A DNA stretch of 42,702 nt from a virus. The DNA lies in the IMG/VR virus record IMGVR_UViG_3300037245_002170, positions 1-42,702 of that record. One strand, given 5' to 3'. The notes below the pieces were generated by a model that did not search any database, was not told where the DNA came from, and worked only from the letters and a program-made list of their open reading frames with translations. A program made the position numbers and the translations under genes. Positions 4,182-21,287 of this stretch are shown here, piece by piece. The number at the start of each line of letters is the position of its first letter. Positions within the stretch are counted from its first letter, which is position 1.

Positions 4182-6055
<1,874 letters not shown>

Positions 6056-6891: not shown

Positions 6892-7910
6892 ACAACGTAG
6901 CTTTTATTATACCAACGGGTTTAGGTTGTACCATTGGTGGTCATGCTGGAGATGCAACACCAGCATCTAAATTGATAGCGAGTGTTTGCGATAGATTGAT
7001 ACTTCACCCAAATGTCGTCAATGCATCAGACATAAACGAGATGTCACATAACTCATTATATGTAGAGGGTAGTATCCTTGACAGATTCCTAGAGAATGAG
7101 ATAAATCTAGATGAAGTTAATAGTAATCGAATCTTGGTTGTTGTTAATGAAATCGGACAACCTATAACCACAAATGCGGTGAATGCGTCTAGAATAAACC
7201 TCGGTGCAAACATAGAGATCGAAGAATTGAATACACCACTTATCATGGAAGCTATGATTGAAAACAAAATGGCAACGGGTGTATCATCTGGTGTCAGTGA
7301 ATTAATTGACCAACTTAAAGATAGAAACGATTTTGATGCGGTAGCTATAGCAACTCCAATTGATATGGCTGAAGGTCTAGCATTAGATTATTTCCGTAAA
7401 TGGAGAGATGATTCATATGCAAACCCATGGGGTGGTATTGAATCAAAAGTATCAAGAGAGATTGCAACAGCACTGAACAAACCAGTAGCACATGCACCAG
7501 TAGAAAGTTTAGATGTAAGGGATGATGATCCAGAGTTATTTAATATACTGTATACTGAAGTTGTTGATCCACGAAAATCAGCTGAAGTGATTTCATCATG
7601 CTACATACATTGTGTGTTGAAAGGTTTACATAAAGCACCAAACATAACAAGGTTTGATCGTGGGATAAATGTATCAAGTATAACATGTTTGGTTTCCCCA
7701 TATGGATGTATCGGTAGACCACATGAAGCATGTTTCAAAGCTGGGATACCCGTTATCGCCGTTCGTGAAAATAAAACATTTATGAATCAGGTGGATGACC
7801 GTATAATCTATGTTGATAACTATCTGGAAGCTACTGGTGTGGTAGCGTGTATACATGCTGGAATAACAATTGAGTCAGTTGAAACATATAAAGTTAAGGA
7901 GAACTTATGA
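6888..7910 (+). CDS. DUF3326 family protein
   Basis: This 340-residue protein begins FIIPTGLGCTIGGHAGDATP, the signature I associate with DUF3326, and keeps family-like segments such as LVSPYGCIGRPHEACFKAGIPVIAVREN near the C terminus. The fold and function are not established to my knowledge. It overlaps the SpeD-like gene and the next gene by 4 bases each, so the three are co-translated. Confidence 0.75.
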   Translation: MNNVAFIIPTGLGCTIGGHAGDATPASKLIASVCDRLILHPNVVNASDINEMSHNSLYVEGSILDRFLENEINLDEVNSNRILVVVNEIGQPITTNAVNASRINLGANIEIEELNTPLIMEAMIENKMATGVSSGVSELIDQLKDRNDFDAVAIATPIDMAEGLALDYFRKWRDDSYANPWGGIESKVSREIATALNKPVAHAPVESLDVRDDDPELFNILYTEVVDPRKSAEVISSCYIHCVLKGLHKAPNITRFDRGINVSSITCLVSPYGCIGRPHEACFKAGIPVIAVRENKTFMNQVDDRIIYVDNYLEATGVVACIHAGITIESVETYKVKENL

Positions 7911-8425
7911 CAGAAGCAAAGAAAACAGCAAAAGATTTTTATACAGAAAATCTATATAAATCATTAATCAAACGAGCAGAGAAATCCAAATATAATGGAT
8001 TCATTATTCCAACATTAACTAAACCCGATTTGTTAGCGGTGATTGGTGACCTAATTGATGTTAACTCAATGGCAGATGAACGGATTGACGTGCTTGAAAA
8101 TGACAACAACCTACTCAGACATGATATTGGTGTTATGGATAAACAGTTAAATGAACTAATTGAAAACCAATATAAAAACACCGACACTATTACAGCTGAA
8201 GATGTTGAAACTGATATCGATCTTCTCAATGCTGTATCCGATTCCGATAATGTTGGTAATGGTGTTGTTGGTAGTATTGATGGTATGGAAATTGAAGTAG
8301 TTGAACCAGCACCTGTTTTGAAAGATAACGTTCGTAGACCTATTGAAAAACCCAAAACACAGATCAGTGCGGAATCACTCAATACTGGTGAAATGGGTTC
8401 ACATCAATATAGCGACTGGAATTAA
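7907..8425 (+). CDS. Hypothetical coiled-coil protein
   Basis: This 172-residue protein has a probable helical coiled-coil from about residue 50 to 90 (DERIDVLENDNNLLRHDIG, then KQLNELIENQYK) followed by an acidic, low-complexity C-terminal half. It lacks recognisable motifs. It overlaps the DUF3326 gene by 4 bases and ends just before a terminator-like hairpin, so it is the last gene of this operon. Confidence 0.55.
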   Translation: MTEAKKTAKDFYTENLYKSLIKRAEKSKYNGFIIPTLTKPDLLAVIGDLIDVNSMADERIDVLENDNNLLRHDIGVMDKQLNELIENQYKNTDTITAEDVETDIDLLNAVSDSDNVGNGVVGSIDGMEIEVVEPAPVLKDNVRRPIEKPKTQISAESLNTGEMGSHQYSDWN

Positions 8426-13080: not shown

Positions 13081-13236
13081 ATGGAAAACATGACATCACA
13101 ATGGAAACCTCGTACAAACACTGGTAAGACCCACTTCAATAAAATGAAGGGTACTGGTGAATCATGGACGAACCTTCGTTCAGAAGTATGGGGTGCGGGA
13201 TACGTCTGCAAAGAAAAATGGGTTGACGTAAAATAG
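13081..13236 (+). CDS. Small hypothetical protein upstream of the tRNA region
   Basis: This 51-residue basic protein (MENMTSQWKPRTNTGK start) follows a good promoter and ribosome binding site. It is rich in lysine, tryptophan and glycine. No family is recognised. It ends just before the first tRNA-operon promoter. Confidence 0.55.
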   Translation: MENMTSQWKPRTNTGKTHFNKMKGTGESWTNLRSEVWGAGYVCKEKWVDVK

Positions 13237-13278
13237 TTTGAAATAATGGTTGACTTCCACTAACGAGTTGAGTATAGT
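13237..13278 (+). promoter_or_regulatory. Stable-RNA promoter P1 with upstream element
   Basis: TTGACT at 13250-13255 and TATAGT at 13273-13278 are 17 nt apart. The AT-rich TTTGAAATAATGG lies directly upstream (13237-13249) and recurs before P2 and P3. P1 would transcribe the large structured RNA and perhaps the tRNA array. Confidence 0.75.
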
Positions 13279-13283
13279 AATAC

Positions 13284-13320
13284 ATAACGATTGAGAAATC
13301 AATCAATGTTCTTTAAAATC
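13284..13320 (+). promoter_or_regulatory. Transcribed leader with boxA-like sequence (P1)
   Basis: The initially transcribed stretch reads ATAACGATTGAGAAATC and is followed by TGTTCTTTAAAA at 13307-13318. The latter resembles the bacterial boxA (TGCTCTTTAACA) bound by NusB/S10 in rRNA operons. The same arrangement follows P3. Confidence 0.55.
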
Positions 13321-13329
13321 TGAATAATT

Positions 13330-14190
13330 TGGGACGTATGGGTTCCAATTTGCCTTCGGGTAAGATAAACTGCGGTAACGTAGTGAAACAGGGTAGCTTT
13401 CTTACAAGTCCTGCCATGGAATTTATTTTTTCATGGACATCTATACAAGCCAAGCTTCTTATAAACTTCACTCCGGTGGAGGATTGGTGGAAGAGCTACA
13501 GGAAGAGGGTAACACCTCACACTAACGGATGATGCCGAGAACACTGAATCAATAGTTCGACATTGAAGAAGCAAAGGGTAGATATACTGTTAGAGTTTGT
13601 TGTGAACGAAAGCGGTGTGTCAAACTTAGTGGTGAAGGAACCAATTAGGTATTCCTGAGTCGTGAAAGTTGATTCAAGTAACTCGACAGGGTGAAAGGGT
13701 ATGTCTCGTAGTGTATTTCTGTTTTGGAAACTTAATGGAAGCAGTTGCTGACTGCACGAGGTGGTAAGTTGCAAATATAGCTCAATTGGTAGAGCAGTTG
13801 TCTAAGAAACAATTGGTTGGTGGTTCAAGTCCATCTCAAAGCAAAAGACGGTCAGCACGGTTGAATGAAAGTGACCTAACACCACTCAATGTGAGGTGGG
13901 TGATGGATTCCCTGCAAGGATGAAATCTATTTGTTAGCAACCATTCATAATATCTTAGCGGATATGAACAGCCCGTAAGGGTTGGTGACGTGAAACGCTA
14001 GTAGAGTAGTTTAACTGGATAGTGGTGAAGCAACCACTTTAAAAAATGCGGTCATGATGTTGACCAGTTTGCCCTTAGTGGGAATTGGTGGATAGTTGAT
14101 TAACGGGTACTCGCAAGGTGTTCGGTACGGTCTAAAAGAAACATCAAGTTGATAGGAGTAATCTCATCCTGTTGATAACATTTTTTGGAA
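13330..14190 (+). ncRNA. Large structured noncoding RNA candidate (GOLLD/ROOL-like class unproven)
   Basis: About 860 bases downstream of P1 hold no convincing gene but many local hairpins. These include a UUCG tetraloop stem (13350-13363), GUAA tetraloop stems at 13369-13384 (ACTGCG/CGTAGT) and 13970-13983 (AGCCC/GGGTT), GCAGT/ACTGC at 13741-13755, and AGTGGT/ACCACT near 14020-14038. Size, tetraloops and position at the head of a phage tRNA array fit the giant ornate RNAs GOLLD and ROOL, which are known from phages near tRNA genes. I cannot confirm class membership, and the exact ends are uncertain. Confidence 0.5.
13771..13842 (+). other. tRNA-like domain inside the large RNA
   Basis: Three arms have canonical tRNA spacing: D-stem GCTC/GAGC (13780-13795), anticodon arm GTTGT/ACAAT with loop CTAAGAA (13797-13813), and T-arm GGTGG-TTCAAGT-CCATC (13819-13835). 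The flanking 7-mers do not pair as an acceptor stem and no CCA follows. The nominal anticodon AAG would be Leu, but the variable arm is too short for Leu. Confidence 0.5.
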
Positions 14191-14245
14191 TTAATTTGAA
14201 TTGTATAAATAACATTAACGAACAACGGATATTAGGAAAGAATAA

Positions 14246-14356
14246 ATGAACAAACTTGGAAAACATATTATAGCGGGAAAATTAACAGTGGATAGTAATC
14301 CATTGCGCCCGTCCGTCCAATTTGCCAATTATATTGGTATGGAGGCTGGATTTTGA
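14246..14356 (+). CDS. Short ORF, possible leader peptide
   Basis: This 36-residue frame has AGGAAAG at 14234-14240 as a ribosome binding site. Its stop codon at 14354-14356 overlaps the first arm of a hairpin that competes with the terminator at 14390-14417. The peptide (MNKLGKHIIAGKL start) has no recognisable motif or obvious run of regulatory codons. The position suggests a leader peptide controlling readthrough into the tRNA genes. Confidence 0.45.
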   Translation: MNKLGKHIIAGKLTVDSNPLRPSVQFANYIGMEAGF

Positions 14357-14396
14357 CCACTTAAGCAAATAGCTTAAACTTTTTACGAAGGTGGTC
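14355..14396 (+). promoter_or_regulatory. Antiterminator-like hairpin
   Basis: GACCAC at 14355-14360 pairs with GTGGTC at 14391-14396, and inside it TTAAGC (14361-14366) pairs with GCTTAA (14372-14377). The distal arm is shared with the terminator stem, so the two structures exclude each other. Confidence 0.55.
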
Positions 14397-14417
14397 TAAA
14401 AATAGATCGCCTTTTTT
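14390..14417 (+). terminator. Intrinsic terminator before the first tRNA
   Basis: GGTGGTCTA (14390-14398) pairs with TAGATCGCC (14403-14411) around an AAAA loop and is followed by six Ts. It is a classical Rho-independent terminator only 18 bases before tRNA-Arg, with no promoter visible between them. Confidence 0.8.
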
Positions 14418-14435
14418 GTTACACTAATTTAAATT

Positions 14436-14510
14436 GCTCTTTTAGTTCAATGGATAGAATACCGGAGTACGATCCCGATGATAGGAGTTCGAATCTCTTA
14501 GAGAGCACCA
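14436..14510 (+). tRNA. tRNA-Arg (ACG)
   Basis: The acceptor GCTCTTT pairs with AGAGAGC and CCA is encoded. The anticodon loop GTACGAT gives ACG, read as ICG if deaminated. The anticodon stem has two mismatches at its ends (CCGGA/CCCGA), so the gene may be slightly decayed. Confidence 0.75.
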
Positions 14511-14514
14511 ATTT

Positions 14515-14530
14515 TGATCTTTGAAAAATA
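14515..14530 (+). promoter_or_regulatory. boxA-like sequence between tRNA-Arg and tRNA-Val
   Basis: TGATCTTTGAAAAATA resembles the boxA-like segments found in rRNA operon leaders and spacers and matches the copy at 14993. It lies in the transcribed spacer, consistent with an antitermination site. Confidence 0.4.
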
Positions 14531-14550
14531 GAATACAGAACGATAGAAAC

Positions 14551-14625
14551 GGTGGGTTAGTTCAGCGGTAGAACGTCTGGTTTACATCCAGAATGTCGGG
14601 GGTTCGATCCCCTCACTCATCACCA
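14551..14625 (+). tRNA. tRNA-Val (TAC)
   Basis: A complete cloverleaf is visible: acceptor GGTGGGT/ACTCATC with G-U pairs, D-stem GTTC/GAAC, anticodon arm TCTGG-TTTACAT-CCAGA, T-loop TTCGATC, and encoded CCA. Confidence 0.93.
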
Positions 14626-14631
14626 TTTTTT

Positions 14632-14722
14632 GGAAGTAGATGCATGACGGTGATTGCTACTCATTGCTAATGAGATGGGTTGGAGAAATCCAACTGGGGT
14701 TCGACTCCTCTTACTTCCTCCA
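14632..14722 (+). tRNA. tRNA-Ser (GCT)
   Basis: The acceptor GGAAGTA pairs perfectly with TACTTCC. The anticodon loop TTGCTAA gives GCT. A long variable arm (TTGGA-GAAA-TCCAA) marks it as a class II tRNA, as expected for Ser. CCA is encoded. Confidence 0.92.
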
Positions 14723-14724
14723 TT

Positions 14725-14797
14725 GGGGTGGTAGCTTAAAGTAAAGCGGTTCGCTTGCACCGAATCAGATGCGTGGTCGAACACGTTCACTCCACCA
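14725..14797 (+). tRNA. tRNA-Ala (TGC)
   Basis: The acceptor GGGGTGG/TCACTCC contains the G3-U70 pair that identifies Ala tRNAs. The anticodon loop CTTGCAC gives TGC. The T-arm is unusual: GCGTG/CACGT encloses a six-base loop GTCGAA instead of the standard seven-base TTCGAAT type. CCA is encoded. Confidence 0.85.
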
Positions 14798-14821
14798 ATT
14801 TGAAATAAATGAAATAACAGG

Positions 14822-14850
14822 TTGACTTACTGAAACAAGTCGGGTATAAC
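14822..14850 (+). promoter_or_regulatory. Stable-RNA promoter P2
   Basis: TTGACT (14822-14827) and TATAAC (14845-14850) are 17 nt apart. TTTGAAATAAATGAAA at 14799-14814 lies upstream in the UP-element position. No TGAGAAA leader follows this one. Confidence 0.7.
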
Positions 14851-14936
14851 ATATACATACTTAAGGAACGGATACGCCTCTGATGATACATGCAAACTGA
14901 GTCCGAAATTAAGTTTGAAATAAATGAAACAAATGA

Positions 14937-14965
14937 TTGACAATGATTAACGATTGAGATACATT
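14937..14965 (+). promoter_or_regulatory. Stable-RNA promoter P3
   Basis: TTGACA (14937-14942) and TACATT (14960-14965) are 17 nt apart, again preceded by TTTGAAATAAATGAAA (14914-14929). The leader ATAACGAATGAGAAATT begins 7 nt after the -10 box, and the boxA-like TGATCTTTGAAAATTG is at 14993-15008. Confidence 0.75.
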
Positions 14966-14971
14966 GACAAC

Positions 14972-15008
14972 ATAACGAATGAGAAATTGTTCTGATCTTT
15001 GAAAATTG
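14972..15008 (+). promoter_or_regulatory. Conserved leader and boxA-like element (P3)
   Basis: ATAACGAATGAGAAATT (14972-14988) is nearly the same as the P1 leader and related to the GTAATCAATGAGAAACC leader of four protein-gene promoters in this window. TGATCTTTGAAAATTG follows and resembles boxA. Confidence 0.55.
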
Positions 15009-15215
15009 AATATAGATAAATTGGTTTTAGCCGAAATTACCAATAAGCCGAAAACATGTTGAGTACGTTTAGGTTTGAGTAGGCTAATCTTTTATCAATG
15101 TAGACCACATATGAATGTGAGTCGTATATTGACGGTATGATTCAATCGTCACATATTAGCAATAGAGTTGAGGAAACCTTTTGTTGATTTGATGAATCTT
15201 AAATAATTTTATATC

Positions 15216-15292
15216 CGGTGTATAGCACAGTCTGGTAGTGCGCGTGGTTTGGGTCCACGAGGTCGCAGGTTCGAACCCTGCTACACCGACCA
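15216..15292 (+). tRNA. tRNA-Pro (TGG)
   Basis: The acceptor CGGTGTA pairs with TACACCG. D-stem GCAC/GTGC, anticodon arm CGTGG-TTTGGGT-CCACG and T-loop TTCGAAC are all standard. CCA is encoded. Confidence 0.95.
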
Positions 15293-15603
15293 ATTTGATG
15301 AATAAGTTGTATGGCGCACTTAGTGTAATCTGAAACGATTCCTATTCGTTTATCAACCTCTGATCATCACTAATTTAAATGAGGCTACGGGGCAACATTA
15401 AACTTCCGTTTACCAATTTTGGTTATCGCTTCGGGTTGAGTTCCTAAAGGGAATACTCGGCATCGATGTCTCACAGAAAACAGGACGAAGAGGTGAGATG
15501 CTTCAGATCGTTTATTGATAACCTTTAGTCAGTCGTATAAATGAATACGGTTCCCATTGCGGGAACAGATGTTGGTGTCGATTCCAGCTTGGCGATCAAT
15601 TTC
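15293..15603 (+). other. Gene-free region with structured RNA between tRNA-Pro and tRNA-Lys
   Basis: No coding sequence is seen. GGTTATC (15421-15427) pairs with GATAACC (15517-15523), enclosing GAG-TTCC/GGAA-CTC near 15438-15458 and TCTCAC/GTGAGA (15469-15474 with 15493-15498). This is a compact three-stem RNA of about 103 bases. Just after it, 15535-15598 holds three tRNA-arm-like hairpins (CGTAT/ATACG, GTTCC/GGAAC, TGG/CCA around TGTCGATT) with no acceptor stem, perhaps a decayed tRNA. Confidence 0.5.
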
Positions 15604-15680
15604 GGGTGTGTAGCTCAGTTGGTTAGAGCATCGGACTTTTAATCCGAGGGTCGAGAGTTCGAGCCTCTCCGCACCCACCA
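15604..15680 (+). tRNA. tRNA-Lys (TTT)
   Basis: The acceptor GGGTGTG pairs with CGCACCC. The anticodon arm TCGGA-CTTTTAA-TCCGA gives TTT. CCA is encoded. Confidence 0.95.
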
Positions 15681-15688
15681 TTTTTATT

Positions 15689-15763
15689 GCGCTGTTGGCA
15701 GAGTGGCTTATGCATTGGATTGCAAATCCAAATACAGGTGTTCGATTCACCTACAGTGCTCCA
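15689..15763 (+). tRNA. tRNA-Cys (GCA)
   Basis: The acceptor GCGCTGT pairs with ACAGTGC and the discriminator is U, as is usual for Cys. The anticodon arm TTGGA-TTGCAAA-TCCAA gives GCA. CCA is encoded. Confidence 0.95.
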
Positions 15764-15771
15764 TTTTTATT

Positions 15772-15858
15772 GGAAGGTTGACAGAGTGGTAATGTTCTGG
15801 TCTTGAACACCAGTGGCGGTGAAAGCCGACGAGGGTTCGATCCCCTCACCTTCCTCCA
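15772..15858 (+). tRNA. tRNA-Ser (TGA)
   Basis: The acceptor GGAAGGT pairs with ACCTTCC. The anticodon arm CTGGT-CTTGAAC-ACCAG gives TGA. A long variable arm (CGG-TGAAA-GCCG) is present. CCA is encoded. Confidence 0.94.
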
Positions 15859-15862
15859 TTTT

Positions 15863-15999
15863 GTCGTCAGCTGAATGATAGTGAAACAGATAGCCTTGTG
15901 CAGAAAACTACTATTGAATCATTCTCTCAGATGATACGGGTGTATCATTGATTACAGCAGATATTACGGAGTTTCACTGTCACCACAGAAGCTCCACCA
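15863..15999 (+). ncRNA. Structured RNA unit with possible pseudoknot
   Basis: This 137-base unit between tRNA-Ser and tRNA-Tyr ends in CTCCACCA like its tRNA neighbours but has no acceptor stem that I can match. GAATGAT (15873-15879) pairs with ATCATTC (15918-15924). AGTGAAAC (15880-15887), in its loop, pairs with GTTTCACT (15971-15978) outside, which makes a pseudoknot. ATGATAC/GTATCAT (15931-15948) forms a hairpin. Confidence 0.4.
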
Positions 16000-16006
16000 T
16001 CTTAAT

Positions 16007-16093
16007 GCATAGATAGAGCGTAATTGGTAGCGTCACAGGTTGTAACCCTGTTGCCTTCGGGTCTTGGTGGTTCGAGTCCATCTCTATGCACCA
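16007..16093 (+). tRNA. tRNA-Tyr (GTA)
   Basis: The acceptor GCATAGA pairs with TCTATGC. The anticodon arm ACAGG-TTGTAAC-CCTGT gives GTA. The long variable arm has a UUCG tetraloop, as expected for a bacterial class II Tyr tRNA. CCA is encoded. Confidence 0.92.
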
Positions 16094-16102
16094 TTTTAAG
16101 TC

Positions 16103-16177
16103 TCGCAAGTCGTATAGTGGCATTGCTTCTGGCTGTTAACCAGAAAGACGTTGGTTCGAATCCAACCTTGCGAACCA
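16103..16177 (+). tRNA. tRNA-Asn (GTT)
   Basis: The acceptor TCGCAAG pairs with CTTGCGA. The anticodon arm TCTGG-CTGTTAA-CCAGA gives GTT. T-arm and CCA are standard. Confidence 0.94.
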
Positions 16178-16186
16178 ATTTTATAC

Positions 16187-16263
16187 GGACTCTTAGTTCA
16201 GTTGGTCAGAACGTCTCGCTCATAACGAGGGTGTCGGGGGTTCAAGTCCCTCAGAGTCCACCA
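16187..16263 (+). tRNA. tRNA with CAT anticodon (elongator Met or Ile2)
   Basis: The acceptor GGACTCT pairs with AGAGTCC. The anticodon loop CTCATAA gives CAT. Three intact CAT tRNAs occur in the array; this one has a fully paired acceptor and so is not an initiator. Lysidine modification would convert it to Ile, which cannot be decided here. Confidence 0.92.
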
Positions 16264-16753
16264 TTTTGAAATCATACAATATCTAAGGCGATGTTGCATA
16301 CAGACCAGTAACTATTGAATCCAAACTCTATGAAGAGCTAAGTAATGGAGAGGTGAAAATAGTGCTCCATGAAATCCGTTGAGAGCATACAAGTACGGTG
16401 ACATGTAGAATCGGAATAATTGGCCGAAAATGATGCAAGTGCGGTATGCTAATGAACTGCATTAAATGGTATCTGTGAAAATGGCAATATTTGATTTCGA
16501 TTAATTTAACACAATAAGGGTGTTGGGTACGGGTTATCCACAGTAGTAAGGTAGGTTCGATTCCCACCAACCTTTGGGTTCGATTCCCTTGGAGTGGACT
16601 GAAACTACTTTCGATTTATAGGTACACGGGAAGGAAAATAGTAGAGAAGTGTTGTTAGGTTGATTGATAATGTCACGTAATTCCTAAATTAACTCTAGGG
16701 TCGCCATCTAGTCATGGATAATGATAAATCTACAACCTATCCAATTTAATATA
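16264..16753 (+). other. Gene-free 490-base region with a tRNA fragment
   Basis: I see no gene in this stretch. Near its middle, AAGGGTG (16516-16522) can pair with CAACCTT (16568-16574) with one mismatch. They flank a single stem-loop (GGGTA/TATCC) and a T-arm GTAGG-TTCGATT-CCCAC, a 59-base tRNA-like relic. A second T-arm-like sequence (GGG-TTCGATT-CCC) follows at 16576-16588. The rest is AT-rich with no structure I can defend. Confidence 0.4.
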
Positions 16754-16828
16754 GTCCCATTCGTCTAACGGTTAGGACATCGGACCTTCAATCCGAGAAT
16801 AGGAGTTCGATTCTCCTATGGGACACCA
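16754..16828 (+). tRNA. tRNA-Glu (TTC)
   Basis: The acceptor GTCCCAT pairs with ATGGGAC. The anticodon stem TCGGA/TCCGA encloses CCTTCAA, giving TTC. Position 33 is C instead of the near-universal U. CCA is encoded. Confidence 0.85.
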
Positions 16829-16978
16829 ATTTTGCAGGTTGACCGTAGTGGGTTAAATCTGCCTAAACCGAATGTGGTGTATTGGAAGCACATCACCCCT
16901 CAGTAATCATACTTCACTGGTGTGGTGAAATGGGGAGAAGGATGAGGATTCGAAGTCCGAAACTAGGTTTTGATTATT
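16829..16978 (+). other. Structured spacer between tRNA-Glu and a tRNA-like unit
   Basis: No gene is present. CCCC (16896-16899) pairs with GGGG (16932-16935) around TTCAC/GTGAA (16913-16917 with 16925-16929), and GCAG/CTGC brackets an upstream segment. It continues into the tRNA-like unit at 16979. Confidence 0.35.
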
Positions 16979-17154
16979 TTTGTGGTAGTGTAACGGAATC
17001 CCATAGACGAATTGAGATATCTTTTCGGTAGAGGATCAAAGTATTACAACAGGGGTGCTTCAGTGCAGTCAAAACCAACTAGTTGTGGTTGTAATATCGA
17101 GTAGCACAGGTGGGAAGACCATCTGGTATCGGTTCAAATCCGATCCACAATACA
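16979..17154 (+). ncRNA. tRNA-like unit with about 104-base insert in the D-loop
   Basis: The acceptor TTTGTGG pairs with CCACAAT (6 of 7). TA at positions 8-9 is followed by D-stem GTGT (16988-16991), whose partner GCAC lies at 17104-17107, leaving a D-loop of 112 bases instead of 7-10. The T-arm ATCGG-TTCAAAT-CCGAT is perfect. The anticodon-arm position holds a hairpin CAGGTGG/CCATCTG with no U33. The end reads ACA, not CCA. Confidence 0.5.
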
Positions 17155-17161
17155 TTTTATT

Positions 17162-17246
17162 GCTCGTATGGTGAAACTGGTAAACGCATCAGACTTAAAA
17201 TCTGACGACTTCGGTCTTGTGGGTTCGATTCCCACTATGAGCACCA
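17162..17246 (+). tRNA. tRNA-Leu (TAA)
   Basis: The acceptor GCTCGTA pairs with TATGAGC. The anticodon arm TCAGA-CTTAAAA-TCTGA gives TAA. The class II variable arm and CCA are present. Confidence 0.95.
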
Positions 17247-17251
17247 ATTTT

Positions 17252-17336
17252 AGAATCTCATCGTTGTCAATCAACCCCTTACTTGGTGGTTGAGGCAAGA
17301 GCAGACGTGCAATTGGAGAAATCCAGCGATAGAACA
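17252..17336 (+). ncRNA. Structured RNA unit between two Leu tRNAs
   Basis: ATCGTTG (17260-17266) pairs with CAGCGAT (17324-17330), and inside it TCAACC (17271-17276) pairs with GGTTGA (17288-17293). It is not a cloverleaf and carries no CCA. It may be a small RNA or a processing spacer. Confidence 0.4.
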
Positions 17337-17342
17337 TTTTAT

Positions 17343-17427
17343 GCTCGTGTGGTGAAACTGGTAAACACGCTGGTCTTAGGAACCAGTGCCGTAAGGTTTG
17401 TGGGTTCGACTCCCACCATGAGCACCA
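17343..17427 (+). tRNA. tRNA-Leu (TAG)
   Basis: The acceptor GCTCGTG pairs with CATGAGC. The anticodon arm CTGGT-CTTAGGA-ACCAG gives TAG. The class II variable arm and CCA are present. Confidence 0.95.
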
Positions 17428-17434
17428 ATTTACT

Positions 17435-17775
17435 GGGGGTGTCACGGTTTCGATTGTCATCACAAGGTAATAACTACAAGTAGTGGATGAGCTTCAGGCC
17501 ACTTTAAAAAGGGTTCAACAAACTATAATTGCAGATACTCTAGCAATTGCGGCTTAGTTGTCGCGCACGTAATTAGAAACATTCACGTTCTTTTTATTGT
17601 GTTCCTATTAGTGGATTGACTTACTAGGAAAGACTGGTTGACGTAATCCAAAGGATTTGACTGAAATGAAAGTGTTTCAAAAGAGTGTCAGTACTTCTTT
17701 GAATATTGACTAAACTTGTAAACGTTATACTGGAAGATAGGTAAGACGGGAGTTCGAATCTCCCCACCTCCACCA
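17435..17775 (+). ncRNA. ssrA: tmRNA (transfer-messenger RNA)
   Basis: The 5' end GGGGGTGTCACGGTTTCGA is the standard tmRNA start. The 3' end has T-arm GGGAG-TTCGAAT-CTCCC and acceptor CACCTCC-A-CCA. The acceptor pairs fully with GGGGGTG and contains G3-U70, the alanyl-tRNA synthetase identity pair. A short reading frame at 17531-17557 encodes ADTLAIAA and stops at TAG, giving a typical small hydrophobic degradation tag; the exact resume codon is inferred. The length of 341 bases fits bacterial tmRNA. It would rescue ribosomes stalled on cut or broken mRNAs. Confidence 0.93.
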
Positions 17776-17799
17776 TTTTAAACAACAAAGGAGAAATAA

Positions 17800-18048
17800 A
17801 TGTTTATTGAAGTGTATATGATCCCAGCAAGTGAATGGGGTACAAAGGATAAAAGTAAAGTAAAAGTTGAGGCTAATAAACGAACAGTTAATGTGTCATC
17901 TATTTTACGGGTTCAACCATCAACTAATGAAGCATTGAAGGATCGTGCCGAACTAGTGATGTCTGACAAAGTTCGTTATCACGTTCTTGGGTCATATGAA
18001 GAAGTAATTGCACGGGTTAACAAAGTTGATAATGTTGAACGTGTATAA
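17800..18048 (+). CDS. Small hypothetical protein behind the tmRNA
   Basis: This 82-residue protein has AAGGAG at 17787-17792 as a good ribosome binding site. It contains two lysine-rich strands (KDKSKVKVEANKRTVNV) and a C-terminal VLGSYEEVIARVNKV helix. It is the only well-supported protein gene inside the plus-strand tRNA array, and it lies 24 bases after the tmRNA. No function is recognised. Whether it acts with tmRNA, as SmpB does, cannot be judged: it lacks SmpB motifs and is about half its length. Confidence 0.65.
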   Translation: MFIEVYMIPASEWGTKDKSKVKVEANKRTVNVSSILRVQPSTNEALKDRAELVMSDKVRYHVLGSYEEVIARVNKVDNVERV

Positions 18049-18141
18049 CAGAACCATACTGGATAAGATTAGGTAGTATCTGCAATGGATACTGTAAAAA
18101 ATAGAGTGGGTCAACCACCAGCTTAATAAACTCCAGTTTTC

Positions 18142-18216
18142 GCTGATGTAGCTCAATGGTAGAGCAATGGATTGAAACCCCATGTGTCGTTGGTTCGAAC
18201 CCAACCTTCAGCACCA
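18142..18216 (+). tRNA. tRNA-Phe (GAA)
   Basis: The acceptor GCTGATG pairs with CTTCAGC with one mismatch. The anticodon loop TTGAAAC gives GAA; its stem ATGGA/CCCAT has one A-C mismatch. CCA is encoded. Confidence 0.87.
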
Positions 18217-18227
18217 ATTTTTATAAT

Positions 18228-18374
18228 GCTCGATGTTGTGATGAGGAGGAAAGATTATAATAAGACAGTACATCTTATTCTGACTTCCAATATTTTGTTG
18301 GAGCACACCATCAACAATAAAATTACGTAAACCTATTGTTGAATGGAGGAGATCATACCTCTCATTGAGCACCA
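18228..18374 (+). ncRNA. tRNA-ended RNA unit, 147 bases
   Basis: The ends pair as a tRNA acceptor (GCTCGAT with ATTGAGC), followed by A and CCA. The 5' end resembles the Leu tRNAs of the array. The T-arm position holds GAGG/CCTC with an abnormal loop. Inside are two strong hairpins, AATAAGA/TCTTATT with a seven-base loop and CAACAATA/TATTGTTG, instead of D and anticodon arms. Confidence 0.45.
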
Positions 18375-18625
18375 ATTTTTATTGTCTGTGGTTTGTAGGA
18401 TAACCACAATAGAAAACACCTACCCAATTTAAGACGGTGGTAAAGAAAAACGTTCAATTGATAATGGAAACCGTTGTCAACCATCTCATTACAGTGCCTA
18501 TACCATGGTGCATGACTGGAAGCGGGAATGAGACGAAAAGTTAATTGAATAGGTTCTATGTGATACTAGTTAAATCATGACTTTCTTCGGAAAGTAGGGT
18601 TCAAATCCCTTATTATCATCACCAA
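18375..18625 (+). ncRNA. Structured unit with tRNA-like 3' end
   Basis: TGATAAT (18459-18465) pairs perfectly with ATTATCA (18612-18618), directly after a T-arm TAGGG-TTCAAAT-CCCTT and a variable-arm-like hairpin with a UUCG loop. The RNA ends CACCA with two extra bases before the usual CCA position. The middle can form TTCAATT/AATTGAA around TCTCATT/AATGAGA. No anticodon arm is evident. Confidence 0.4.
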
Positions 18626-18632
18626 TTTTGCA

Positions 18633-18703
18633 ATTAGCATATAGGTATAATGCGATTCCCCAGAGAAGGAGTAGAAGTGAATTCAAACCCACGTTGCATA
18701 TCC
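18633..18703 (+). pseudogene. Decayed tRNA
   Basis: A tRNA-sized unit has a good D-arm (GCAT/ATGC), an anticodon-position stem ATTCC/GGAGT around an eight-base loop CCAGAGAA without U33, and a T-arm with two A-C mismatches around TTCAAAC. The acceptor pairs TGCAA with TTGCA, and CCA is present. I do not assign an amino acid. Confidence 0.45.
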
Positions 18704-18710
18704 ATTTTAT

Positions 18711-18785
18711 TGCCCTATAGTATAACGGTCAGTACAGGAGACTTTGAATCTCTGGGTCACGGTTCGATTCCGTGTAGGGCATCCA
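18711..18785 (+). tRNA. tRNA-Gln (TTG)
   Basis: The acceptor TGCCCTA pairs with TAGGGCA. The anticodon arm GGAGA-CTTTGAA-TCTCT gives TTG. CCA is encoded. Confidence 0.94.
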
Positions 18786-18792
18786 TTTTTAT

Positions 18793-18867
18793 TGCCTTAT
18801 CGTACAACGGTTAGTATGGGAGACTCTGACTCTCTAGATTTCAGTTCGATTCTGAATGAGGCATCCA
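18793..18867 (+). tRNA. tRNA-Gln (CTG)
   Basis: The acceptor TGCCTTA pairs with TGAGGCA. The anticodon arm GGAGA-CTCTGAC-TCTCT gives CTG. It is a diverged duplicate of the neighbouring Gln tRNA, with the wobble base changed. CCA is encoded. Confidence 0.92.
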
Positions 18868-18878
18868 ATTTATAAAAC

Positions 18879-18954
18879 GCAAGTGTGGCTGAGTGGTAAA
18901 GGCGGGTGATTTCCAATCATCTTTTTGCGGGTTCAAATCCTGTCACTTGCACCA
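18879..18954 (+). tRNA. tRNA-Gly (TCC)
   Basis: The acceptor GCAAGTG pairs with CACTTGC. The anticodon arm GGTGA-TTTCCAA-TCATC gives TCC. CCA is encoded. Confidence 0.9.
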
Positions 18955-18961
18955 ATTTTAT

Positions 18962-19074
18962 GCTAGGTTACGCAAGACATAGACTTCCCCAATAGGTATA
19001 CATCTGGATAGCCTTCGGATAAGCGAGAGGTGCAAAACCTTCGATGATTGGTTCGAATCCAATGCCTAGCTCCA
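18962..19074 (+). ncRNA. tRNA-like unit, 113 bases, enlarged D-loop
   Basis: The acceptor GCTAGGT pairs with GCCTAGC (one G-U), the T-arm ATTGG-TTCGAAT-CCAAT is perfect, and CCA is encoded. A D-stem CGC/GCG encloses about 46 bases. The anticodon position holds GAGG/CCTT with loop TGCAAAA, lacking U33. It is either an insert-bearing tRNA or a tRNA-derived RNA. Confidence 0.5.
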
Positions 19075-19152
19075 ATTTAGGTTAAGCTGTTAACCTCTTA
19101 ACATTAAGTTGAAGTATCCACATATATGGTGGATTGATAAATAACACACAAT
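19075..19152 (+). other. Hairpin spacer
   Basis: AGGTTAA/TTAACCT (around 19079-19097) and ATCCAC/GTGGAT (around 19118-19136) form two hairpins in the spacer. No gene is present. Confidence 0.4.
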
Positions 19153-19370
19153 TTGAAGTAGAATAAGTCGATACTGTCACCCTAATAGCTTAAAGGTGAT
19201 GAAAAACATATGAGAGACTCCGCTAGAAGAACGTAATGGACACATGTGATACAAAACAACCAGAACTAGTAAGCAAGCAATGAGGAACAACGTGAAATCC
19301 ATATGGTGAAAATTTCGCCCACCCTACGTGGTGGAGAGTGTATGTAATCCGATAACATACCTTCAATCCA
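19153..19370 (+). ncRNA. Structured RNA with acceptor-like ends, 218 bases
   Basis: TTGAAGT at the 5' end pairs with CCTTCAA at the 3' end (6 of 7), followed by T and CCA and the usual ATTTT spacer. Next to the 3' strand GTATGT/ACATAC forms a T-arm-like hairpin with a nine-base loop. TCACC/GGTGA forms near 19177-19201. There is no cloverleaf, and the assignment is tentative. Confidence 0.35.
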
Positions 19371-19382
19371 ATTTTAAACACT

Positions 19383-19457
19383 TTGCCTGTAGATCAATGG
19401 TTAGATTGCTAGACTGTGACTCTGGAGACTTGGGTTCGACTCCCAACAGGCAACCCA
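19383..19457 (+). tRNA. tRNA-His (GTG)
   Basis: The acceptor TTGCCTG pairs with CAGGCAA and the discriminator is C. The anticodon arm CTAGA-CTGTGAC-TCTGG gives GTG. The base before position 1 is T, so the G-1 that identifies bacterial His tRNAs is not encoded. Confidence 0.9.
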
Positions 19458-19466
19458 TTTATATAT

Positions 19467-19542
19467 GCCAGTATAGCTTTAACGGTAGAGCAACGGTCTT
19501 GTAAACCGAAGGTTGGGAGTTCGAATCTCTCTGCTGGCTCCA
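19467..19542 (+). tRNA. tRNA-Thr (TGT)
   Basis: The acceptor GCCAGTA pairs with TGCTGGC. The anticodon arm ACGGT-CTTGTAA-ACCGA gives TGT. CCA is encoded. Confidence 0.93.
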
Positions 19543-19547
19543 ATTTT

Positions 19548-19623
19548 GCATGATTAGCTCAGATGGAAGAGCACGAGATTTCTAATCTCGAAGTCATAGG
19601 TTCGATCCCTATATCGTGCGCCA
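19548..19623 (+). tRNA. tRNA-Arg (TCT)
   Basis: The acceptor GCATGAT pairs with ATCGTGC and the discriminator is G. The anticodon arm CGAGA-TTTCTAA-TCTCG gives TCT. CCA is encoded. It would read AGA, a codon often rare in hosts. Confidence 0.94.
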
Positions 19624-19626
19624 TTT

Positions 19627-19720
19627 TGAATAACATTAGACCACGGCAACACAAGGAATTCCTGCAATATGGATGTAACAACTTTCGTGGTTCTGTTGAA
19701 TGTGTCCTTGGTGTTATTCA
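19627..19720 (+). ncRNA. Structured RNA closed by a 9-bp stem
   Basis: TGAATAACA (19627-19635) pairs with TGTTATTCA (19712-19720). ACCACG (19640-19645) pairs with CGTGGT (19686-19691) inside it, and AGGAATTCCT lies in the loop. It has no CCA and no tRNA arms. It could be a small RNA released when the flanking tRNAs are processed. Confidence 0.5.
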
Positions 19721-19724
19721 TTTC

Positions 19725-19801
19725 CCCTGATTAGCTCAGTCGGTTAGAGCGTTCGACTCATATTCGAAAGGTCGCTGGTTCGATTCCAGCATCAGGGACC
19801 A
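19725..19801 (+). tRNA. tRNA with CAT anticodon (Met or Ile2)
   Basis: The acceptor CCCTGAT pairs with ATCAGGG. The anticodon arm TTCGA-CTCATAT-TCGAA gives CAT. All pairs are good and CCA is encoded. It could be elongator Met or lysidine-modified Ile. Confidence 0.92.
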
Positions 19802-19828
19802 TTTTAAACAATGATATATTAATCAATT

Positions 19829-19903
19829 TGCGGGTGGGAGGTTCAGTATCTCTCTTGGCTCATAACCAAGCATAAACTGGTGCAAATCCAAGACCCGCTA
19901 CCA
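19829..19903 (+). tRNA. tRNA-fMet-like (CAT)
   Basis: The acceptor TGCGGGT/ACCCGCT has six pairs and a T-T mismatch at 1-72; a 1-72 mismatch is the hallmark of bacterial initiator tRNAs. The body GCGGGTGGGAG resembles bacterial fMet tRNA. The anticodon arm CTTGG-CTCATAA-CCAAG gives CAT but lacks the three G-C pairs of a strong initiator. The T-arm has two mismatches. Confidence 0.7.
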
Positions 19904-19911
19904 ATTTCAAT

Positions 19912-19984
19912 GGGGATATAGCTCAATCGGTAGAGCACTAGCCTGTCAAGTTAGAGGTTGCGGGATCGTACCCCGTTATTCCCG
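19912..19984 (+). tRNA. tRNA-Asp (GTC), 3' end not followed by CCA
   Basis: The acceptor GGGGATA pairs with TATTCCC and the discriminator is G. The anticodon arm CTAGC-CTGTCAA-GTTAG gives GTC. The T-loop ATCGTAC is atypical. CCA is not encoded: the sequence runs directly into CATTTTT. The stop codon of the minus-strand HNH gene lies inside the acceptor region. Confidence 0.85.
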
Positions 19985-20716
19985 CATTTTTAATAATTCC
20001 ACCCTACGTGTTGGTATATCATAGAATCTACACCACTTTCGAATAGAATTACCACTTACACCATATTTTATACCAGCTTGTTCAATATTTGTTGATATTA
20101 TGTCATCTATTAATATATTAACATCAGGTCTTTTGGATATATTCGAGTTTGATACAATTTGAGCACAACTAACACACCGTGTTGATTTTCTATGTATTGT
20201 AGTGTTACAGTCAATACATTTATTGATTTTTCGTTTATGTTTACCACTAAATGTTGATGTTTGGGTGTGGCAGTTAGGGCATATGAATCTTAAATTACAC
20301 ATCCTATTATCGTTATTTATACCGTTTTTGTGATCCAATTGTAATACCAACACATCATCATTCCAAAATGGTAGTTGTCCACATGAATCACATATATATG
20401 GTAACATATCACCATCGATTATACGTTTCTTAATTCGACCACGGCAATATGTTGAATTTTCAATAAAAACACTATCGTCATCTAATCGACACTGTTTTCT
20501 TAGTTGTTCACCATGTTTCTTTAAGTGTATTTTACGGTTTTCATCTAATTTCAAGGTTGAAAGATCATATAAAACTATACGATTTTTAAGTGTTTGCCTA
20601 TTTCCACAACTTCCACTTAACCCTATAGTTTTTAATACATCAACTGATGATGTTGATGTATCCAAAATATGTTGTAATTGTTGTATGCTATATGTATCAA
20701 TTTTACTTTTTCTCAT
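19976..20716 (-). CDS. HNH homing-type endonuclease
   Basis: This 246-residue protein is the only minus-strand gene. Its HNH core is LQLDHKNGINNDNRMCNLRF followed by CPNCHTQT (around residues 124-152), flanked by CDSCGQ and a second CxxC pair (CIDCN, CVSCAQ), a zinc-stabilised arrangement. The C-terminal segment IKYGVSGNSIRKWCRFYDIP looks like a helix-turn-helix for target recognition. AGAGG upstream of ATG 20714-20716 supports the start. Its stop overlaps the 3' end of tRNA-Asp, so it probably entered the array as a free-standing mobile endonuclease. Confidence 0.88.
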   Translation of the reverse strand: MRKSKIDTYSIQQLQHILDTSTSSVDVLKTIGLSGSCGNRQTLKNRIVLYDLSTLKLDENRKIHLKKHGEQLRKQCRLDDDSVFIENSTYCRGRIKKRIIDGDMLPYICDSCGQLPFWNDDVLVLQLDHKNGINNDNRMCNLRFICPNCHTQTSTFSGKHKRKINKCIDCNTTIHRKSTRCVSCAQIVSNSNISKRPDVNILIDDIISTNIEQAGIKYGVSGNSIRKWCRFYDIPTRRVELLKMRE

Positions 20717-20783
20717 TTTTTTAACCTCTTATATATTTATGAACCCACAAGTATTTATACAAAACAGTCACAATACCAATTAT

Positions 20784-20859
20784 AGTCACGTAGCTCAGAA
20801 GTGAGAGCATCTGTCTGATACACAGAGGGTCGGGATTGCAAAATTCTCCGTGACTACCA
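20784..20859 (+). tRNA. tRNA-Ile (GAT)
   Basis: The acceptor AGTCACG pairs with CGTGACT. The anticodon arm TCTGT-CTGATAC-ACAGA gives GAT. The T-arm is weak, with an enlarged loop containing TTGCAAAA. CCA is encoded. Confidence 0.85.
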
Positions 20860-20863
20860 ATTT

Positions 20864-21011
20864 GAGTAAGTAGTATAATGGCAGAACACCATTGATAGTT
20901 TGATCCCTCATTCGCCTAGTATTTCGGCTCATAACCGAAGAACATCGAGTTGATATCAGTAATTCTTGACACATAATGGGGAATTAGGTTCGATTCCTAA
21001 CTTGCTCACCA
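20864..21011 (+). ncRNA. tRNA-like unit, 148 bases, with internal CAT anticodon arm
   Basis: The acceptor GAGTAAG pairs with CTTGCTC, the T-arm TTAGG-TTCGATT-CCTAA is perfect and CCA is encoded. A D-arm-like GTATAATGGCAGAAC follows the 5' acceptor strand. A perfect anticodon arm TTCGG-CTCATAA-CCGAA lies in the middle, but about 30 extra bases separate it from the D-arm and about 45 from the T-arm. It could be a tRNA with two inserts or a recombined tRNA. Confidence 0.5.
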
Positions 21012-21020
21012 ATTTCAATT

Positions 21021-21095
21021 AGGGGCGTAGTACAACGGTTAGTATTGGGGATTCCAAATCCTTTGATTTCGGTTCGAATCCGAACGTCCCTGCCA
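21021..21095 (+). tRNA. tRNA-Trp (CCA)
   Basis: The acceptor AGGGGCG pairs with CGTCCCT and the discriminator is G. The anticodon loop TTCCAAA gives CCA. The 3' CCA is encoded. Confidence 0.93.
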
Positions 21096-21104
21096 ATTTC
21101 AAAT

Positions 21105-21179
21105 GCATCATTAGCTCAATGGTAGAGCACCACGTTGCCAACGTGAAGGTTGATGGCTCAACTCCGTCATGATGCACCA
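21105..21179 (+). tRNA. tRNA-Gly (GCC)
   Basis: The acceptor GCATCAT pairs with ATGATGC. The anticodon loop TTGCCAA gives GCC. The T-loop is CTCAACT, lacking the usual TTC. CCA is encoded. Confidence 0.88.
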
Positions 21180-21205
21180 ATTTATCTATATTCAATTCAG
21201 TTTTC

Positions 21206-21287
21206 GCACATATGGTGAAACTGGTAGACACGCTACTTTCAAACGGTAGTGTCTTATGACGTGTGGGTTCGAATCCCTCTATGTGCA
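21206..21287 (+). tRNA. tRNA-Leu (CAA), CCA not encoded
   Basis: The acceptor GCACATA pairs with TATGTGC and the discriminator is A, followed directly by ATTTTT. The anticodon stem CTACT/GGTAG encloses TTCAAAC, giving CAA. The class II variable arm is present. It is the last tRNA of the array and would need CCA addition by the host enzyme. Confidence 0.88.

Follow-up and report, generated by a model that had tools for sequence, protein, structure and literature searches.

The window analysed here, a phage fragment of 42,702 nucleotides, contains about 860 apparently noncoding bases ahead of a long array of tRNA genes, and the question that this locus raises is which RNA they encode and for what use. 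A preliminary description, made from the letters alone, had suggested a large structured RNA which could be a divergent member of the GOLLD or ROOL families or else a new class.

Genomic setting and extent of the RNA gene

The 42.7-kb virus record encodes homologues of UvsX, a DnaB-like helicase, an RNA ligase, an NAD-dependent DNA ligase and GroEL, from which we conclude that the window derives from a large tailed phage. The gene for the GroEL-like chaperonin is located at 4439-6055. An upstream protein of 411 aa had no match among named phages.

ARAGORN identified 26 tRNA genes and one tmRNA gene in an array at 14436-21287, and the RNA gene lies directly 5' of this array, at its head as had been described. 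Phage origin and nearby tRNA genes are both in agreement with GOLLD membership. The ORFs across 13330-14190 do not exceed 85 aa in any frame, and the alignments with the nearest distinct relatives, contigs L175 (86% identity over the whole gene) and L177 (68%), span the entire RNA gene and contain many indels whose lengths are not multiples of three, which supports the noncoding nature attributed to these ~860 bases. A further contig, L294, is 99.9% identical to the window, the sequence compared stopping inside the gene. The structured noncoding RNA thus delimited covers approximately 13330-14172 (~840 nt); its gene probably starts near 13285, in the leader, and the RNA probably ends near 14172-14185. 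The features of the locus are listed in Table 1.

Table 1. Features of the GOLLD locus, in window coordinates
Feature	Position	Strand	Evidence
Sigma-70 type promoter TTGACT-17-TATAGT	13250..13278	+	Kept in L175 and L177
Small leader hairpin GATTGA-GAAA-TCAATC, boxB-like	13289..13304	+	Compensatory change in L177
boxA-like TGTTCTTTAAAATCTGAAT	13307..13325	+	Kept in L175 and L177; compare E. coli rrn leader
GOLLD 5' domain, lineage-specific type	13330..13702	+	Covariation (34/109 pairs); pattern scans
GOLLD 3' domain, full Rfam model 1-416	13703..14170	+	98 bits, E 3.5e-26; covariation; pairs formed
Helix closing the loop with the tRNA-like element	13746-13755 / 13847-13857	+	Covariation
tRNA-like element in GOLLD linker	13771..13843	+	Rfam tRNA match, 51.7 bits; covariation; pairs formed
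Long-range helix	13858-13866 / 14009-14017	+	Double changes in 9/9 pairs
3' terminal GOLLD hairpin AGGA-GUAAUCUCA-UCCU	14153..14171	+	cmscan match; covariation; pairs formed
Intrinsic-terminator-like hairpin	14387..14414	+	Strong, z -4.89

Between the GOLLD RNA and the array the window has only a 36-codon ORF (14246-14356), where L175 has a protein ORF of ~90 codons (7800-8090 of that contig) that is absent from the window. The tmRNA gene (17435-17775) has the predicted tag peptide ADTLAIAA. Rfam tRNA matches that are absent from the ARAGORN list were found at 14725-14794, 17082-17152 and 20784-20856, and some of these may be degraded.

Assignment to the GOLLD family

The region 13200-14440 was compared by cmscan with all 4227 Rfam families at E values up to 10, and three matches were returned. 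The GOLLD model (RF02032) matched over its full length with 98 bits, whereas ROOL gave no match at all, so that the Rfam check proposed in the preliminary description settled on the first of its two families. The other two matches were a tRNA at 13771-13843 and SAM_alpha, the latter with an E value of 3 and taken as chance. The GOLLD match falls short of the 150 bits that Rfam has set as the curated gathering score, and an ordinary annotation run would therefore leave GOLLD unreported here; the nearest relatives are likewise below it (94.7 bits for L175 and 117.2 for L177). That score is a conservative listing threshold and not a structural feature, and members were collected with a cmsearch cut-off of 1e-5 in the GOLLD structure study (PMC12286853). 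Since the window aligns and covaries with members that score above the threshold, we regard the RNA as almost certainly a true, though divergent, GOLLD.

Viral contigs were fetched with patterns of the conserved GOLLD ends and the records were then searched with covariance models, which also separated true GOLLDs from the chance matches that the loose 3'-end pattern had mixed with them. GOLLD was found in 35/49, 30/49, 30/50 and 14/19 of the fetched records, giving 109 GOLLD-bearing phage contigs, and the same kind of search found no GOLLD in 14 control genomes. A nucleotide search of named phages with the whole RNA gave a match only in the tRNA-like part described below.

Structure and covariation

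In an alignment of the 3' domains of 26 GOLLDs, including the window, double changes were observed in 70 of the 89 pairs, and none of 500 shuffles reached any of five measures; the signal was also destroyed when the partners were slid. Of the cells in this alignment 93.7% pair (67.3% in shuffles), a percentage that is biased upward because the structure was derived from the same alignments, and more weight is due to the double changes. Of the 88 pairs at which the window has letters, it forms 79. In the helix that closes the loop with the tRNA-like element, 97.4% of the cells are paired and double changes occur in six of nine pairs.

The 5' domain could be compared in three sequences, where 34/109 pairs showed double changes against 11.5 in shuffles (0/500). 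In the viral collection searched, this type of 5' domain is common only to the window, L175, L177 and the near-identical L294. A structured and less conserved 5' domain, together with a total of ~840 nt, is what is expected of GOLLD RNAs (about 800 nt or more). The tetraloops described earlier are present, UUCG at 13355 and GUAA at 13375 and 13975, although L177 has no UUCG hairpin, which is therefore not essential. The claim of a structured RNA gains little from folding free energy, which alone is weak and not decisive (z -1.86), and is carried by the covariation among homologues that had been put forward as a check, which is strong in the 3' domain and can be seen in the 5' domain too.

These results also bear on the idea that the RNA represents ROOL or a large-RNA class unrelated to GOLLD. 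The low score and a 5' domain common to very few contigs could be read in that sense, but the match to GOLLD is full-length, covarying helices are common to the window and GOLLD, and ROOL, although alike as a large phage RNA beside tRNAs, is unmatched. Alignment of the window with GOLLDs whose scores exceed the cut-off refutes an unrelated class, and this whole reading is to be considered extremely improbable.

A tRNA-like element inside the RNA

The GOLLD linker of the window (model columns 69-118) holds a tRNA-like element which the preliminary description did not mention and which ARAGORN missed. Its D (13780-13795), anticodon (13797-13813, loop CTAAGAA) and T (13819-13835) arms are intact, with 14/14 arm pairs formed, and the conserved GOLLD sequence AAAGCAAAAG follows almost directly 3' of the T stem. 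The acceptor stem is collapsed, with one contiguous pair and three of seven in all, and there is no CCA, so the element lacks the 7-bp stem and 3' CCA of a tRNA. The 5' strand GCAAA is kept, as in the relatives L231 and L234, and the matching TTTGC is absent; judged from the letters, it looks as if the 3' acceptor strand of the window element has been lost.

The same tendency was seen across the 26 aligned members, 18 of which have 4-6 contiguous acceptor pairs left on the inner side and have lost the outer ones, with a mean of 4.5/7 pairs compared with 3.0 when partners were shuffled. Most of the ordinary tRNA genes of the window have seven acceptor pairs and 24/26 encode CCA, a comparison that serves as a yardstick and not as a blind test because ARAGORN itself favours intact stems. 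All three arms of the embedded elements covary and U33 is present in 24/26. In 18/24 cases the nearest neighbour of an embedded element was another embedded element, with 150 ordinary tRNAs available, although this measure is rough and may be compatible with several independent captures of tRNAs. Many GOLLD members have a short linker and no such element; the GOLLD of DSS3P8 is among those without one, and in L284 the element is degraded.

The 3' region of GOLLD env-38 begins at nucleotide 421, and the cryo-EM structure shows the linker (nucleotides 497-538) as disordered and located inside a 14-mer cage (PMC12286853). The window element lies equally far from where the 3' domain begins, which puts it in that linker. 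The env-38 authors note that tRNAs are sometimes present in the linker, and linked tRNAs are thus already published (PMC12286853). We found no mention of a truncated acceptor as a pattern in GOLLD in the part of the literature covered.

Two annotated tRNA genes occupy the same linker place in other phages, namely tRNA-Lys of Caulobacter phage Karma (L290, 1611-1682) and tRNA-Arg of Phaeobacter phage MD18 (L291, 1585-1658). Both are tRNA-like elements inside a GOLLD with a truncated acceptor, four inner pairs being kept compared with one in the window, and their annotation as tRNA genes is probably mistaken. The GOLLD RNA of Vibrio phage D419 (L289, 1072-1931) is overlaid by annotations of five hypothetical proteins, and more than 300 Vibrio phage records match the D419 type of GOLLD.

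Promoter and rrn-type leader

The RNA gene is preceded by a promoter, a small hairpin and a boxA-like motif, in the order that characterises an rrn-type leader. The strong promoter claimed in the preliminary description stands in that the element is kept in L175 and L177 (TTGACA-17-TACTAT in the latter, with a diverged spacer), whereas the count of promoter consensus sequences in the region is not above chance (seven found, 5.4 expected). The L177 hairpin, GAGTGA-GGAA-TCACTC, differs by one compensatory change from a TA to a GC pair. In the E. coli genome a hairpin followed by TGCTCTTTAACA occurs in ~7 copies just before 16S rRNA, and this arrangement is the well-established boxB-boxA of rrn antitermination.

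Among the GOLLD relatives the boxA-like motif was found 70 times in the slot 330-620 nt 5' of the 3' domain, an enrichment of ~30-fold over the remainder of the same contigs, where the control rate is 0.019 per 230 nt. A hairpin precedes the motif at 61 of these 70 sites and at 46% of the control sites, and the hairpin alone is therefore not specific. When the relatives were clustered at 80% identity the leader was present in 15/39 clusters, or in 16/39 with L177, which was added by eye because its boxA-like TGATCTTTAACA was missed by the scan pattern. Several leader-bearing relatives have promoters that we judged by eye to be of the Bacteroidota type (TTG ... TAnnTTTG). No boxA-like motif was found upstream of GOLLD in the named Vibrio, Mycobacterium, Caulobacter and Roseobacter phages examined, Karma and MD18 included, where the GOLLDs are placed within or beside tRNA arrays, and the leader is consequently common and not defining. 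In the part of the literature covered we found no mention of an rrn-type leader of GOLLD genes, or of boxA and GOLLD RNA together.

A second leader, with promoter, hairpin and boxA-like TGATCTTTGAAAATTGAATA, is located at 14937-15012 of the window, and the ~200 noncoding bases between it and tRNA-Pro, ~87% identical in L175, are possibly another stable RNA. Another boxA-like sequence, TGATCTTTGAAAAATAGAAT, lies at 14515-14535, within the array and just 5' of tRNA-Val. The other array spacers gave no clear covariation in a check with two sequences only.

Comparison with known systems

The window RNA resembles GOLLD RF02032 and env-38 (PMC12286853) in the whole 3' domain, the closing and long-range helices, size, phage origin, tRNA-gene neighbourhood and the position of the linker. 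It differs in its score, in its own type of 5' domain, in the acceptor-less element of the linker and in the rrn-type leader. The GOLLD of Mycobacterium aubagnense (PMC6582537), likened here by description, also goes with a tRNA array and has a pseudo-tRNA inside, although it sits in a bacterial tRNA cluster. The leader has, like that of E. coli rrn, a hairpin and then TGnTCTTTAA ahead of a long RNA that is not translated; the E. coli leader drives rRNA, and the phage leader is likened to it by sequence and order.

Proposed model and alternatives

We propose that the promoter and the rrn-style leader give rise to an ~840-nt RNA, in which a 5' domain specific to the lineage precedes the conserved 3' domain of GOLLD, followed by the tRNA/tmRNA array. 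The leader would recruit the Nus antitermination complex, and RNA polymerase would then resist Rho on the long untranslated transcript and yield abundant RNA during infection, as on rRNA operons. By analogy with the latter, a function of the leader in antitermination is predicted as somewhat probable. Copies of the RNA would self-assemble into a hollow cage, as does the env-38 14-mer, with the linker, and hence the tRNA-like elements, facing the interior; we consider it likely, by analogy with the published structure, that the window RNA forms such a cage, although its 5' domain is unlike that of most other GOLLDs surveyed, which counts against transferring the model to it. In the least certain step, the element would act as a mimic of the tRNA elbow and anticodon for a tRNA-recognising partner inside the cage, for instance the ribosome, a tRNA-modifying enzyme or a nuclease, and would be neither released nor charged as a tRNA. 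This role is a tentative candidate.

Could the leader be no more than a strong phage promoter and a start rich in AT, its likeness to boxA being due to chance? The motif is absent from most tRNA-bearing clusters and similar hairpin-bearing motifs exist elsewhere in the same contigs, but its enrichment in the slot before GOLLD, its conservation in L175 and L177 with a compensatory change in the hairpin, and an order of elements identical to that of rrn make chance rather unlikely. With respect to the linker, the element could be a genuine tRNA, cut out of the GOLLD transcript for use in translation or as cargo, as its intact arms, the annotations in Karma and MD18 and the linked tRNAs suggested in print (PMC12286853) might indicate. 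Against this, relatives in general have lost the outer pairs of the acceptor stem, the window has one contiguous pair left and no CCA, the anticodon AAG would be that of leucine and there is no long variable arm, and the pseudo-tRNA of the Mycobacterium GOLLD was undetected as a separate RNA (PMC6582537); a real tRNA is thus very improbable.

A decaying, neutral tRNA insertion in a loop that tolerates everything is a possible but doubtful explanation. GOLLD is variable in its linker, the anticodons vary, and members with no element or a degraded one exist, as seen above; on the other hand, the abundant compensatory changes in three arms and the retention of U33 over deep divergence speak for selection, even if new tRNAs recruited again and again would be expected to leave a similar pattern.

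Implications for GOLLD function

Published models allow that the GOLLD cage may carry linked tRNAs (PMC12286853). As the embedded elements are mostly without a full acceptor stem, they speak against ordinary tRNA cargo, which we regard as unlikely, and point to a reader of the tRNA elbow or anticodon arm. GOLLD expression is reported to rise during lysis, and ribosomes to bind GOLLD in pull-downs (PMC12286853); in a Lactobacillus brevis prophage, phage production is reported not to require its GOLLD (PMC7567579). Taken as a whole, the idea that GOLLD genes borrow an rRNA antitermination leader and hold a selected acceptor-less tRNA mimic in the cage, which would make the cage a bait or binding compartment for a tRNA-recognising host factor and not a store of tRNAs, is speculative and perhaps unlikely to hold in every part. 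The rrn-type leader, if true, would explain how phages synthesise a long untranslated RNA in abundance. The family itself is known, and it is two details, the acceptor-less element and the rrn-type leader, that make the function of GOLLD more testable.
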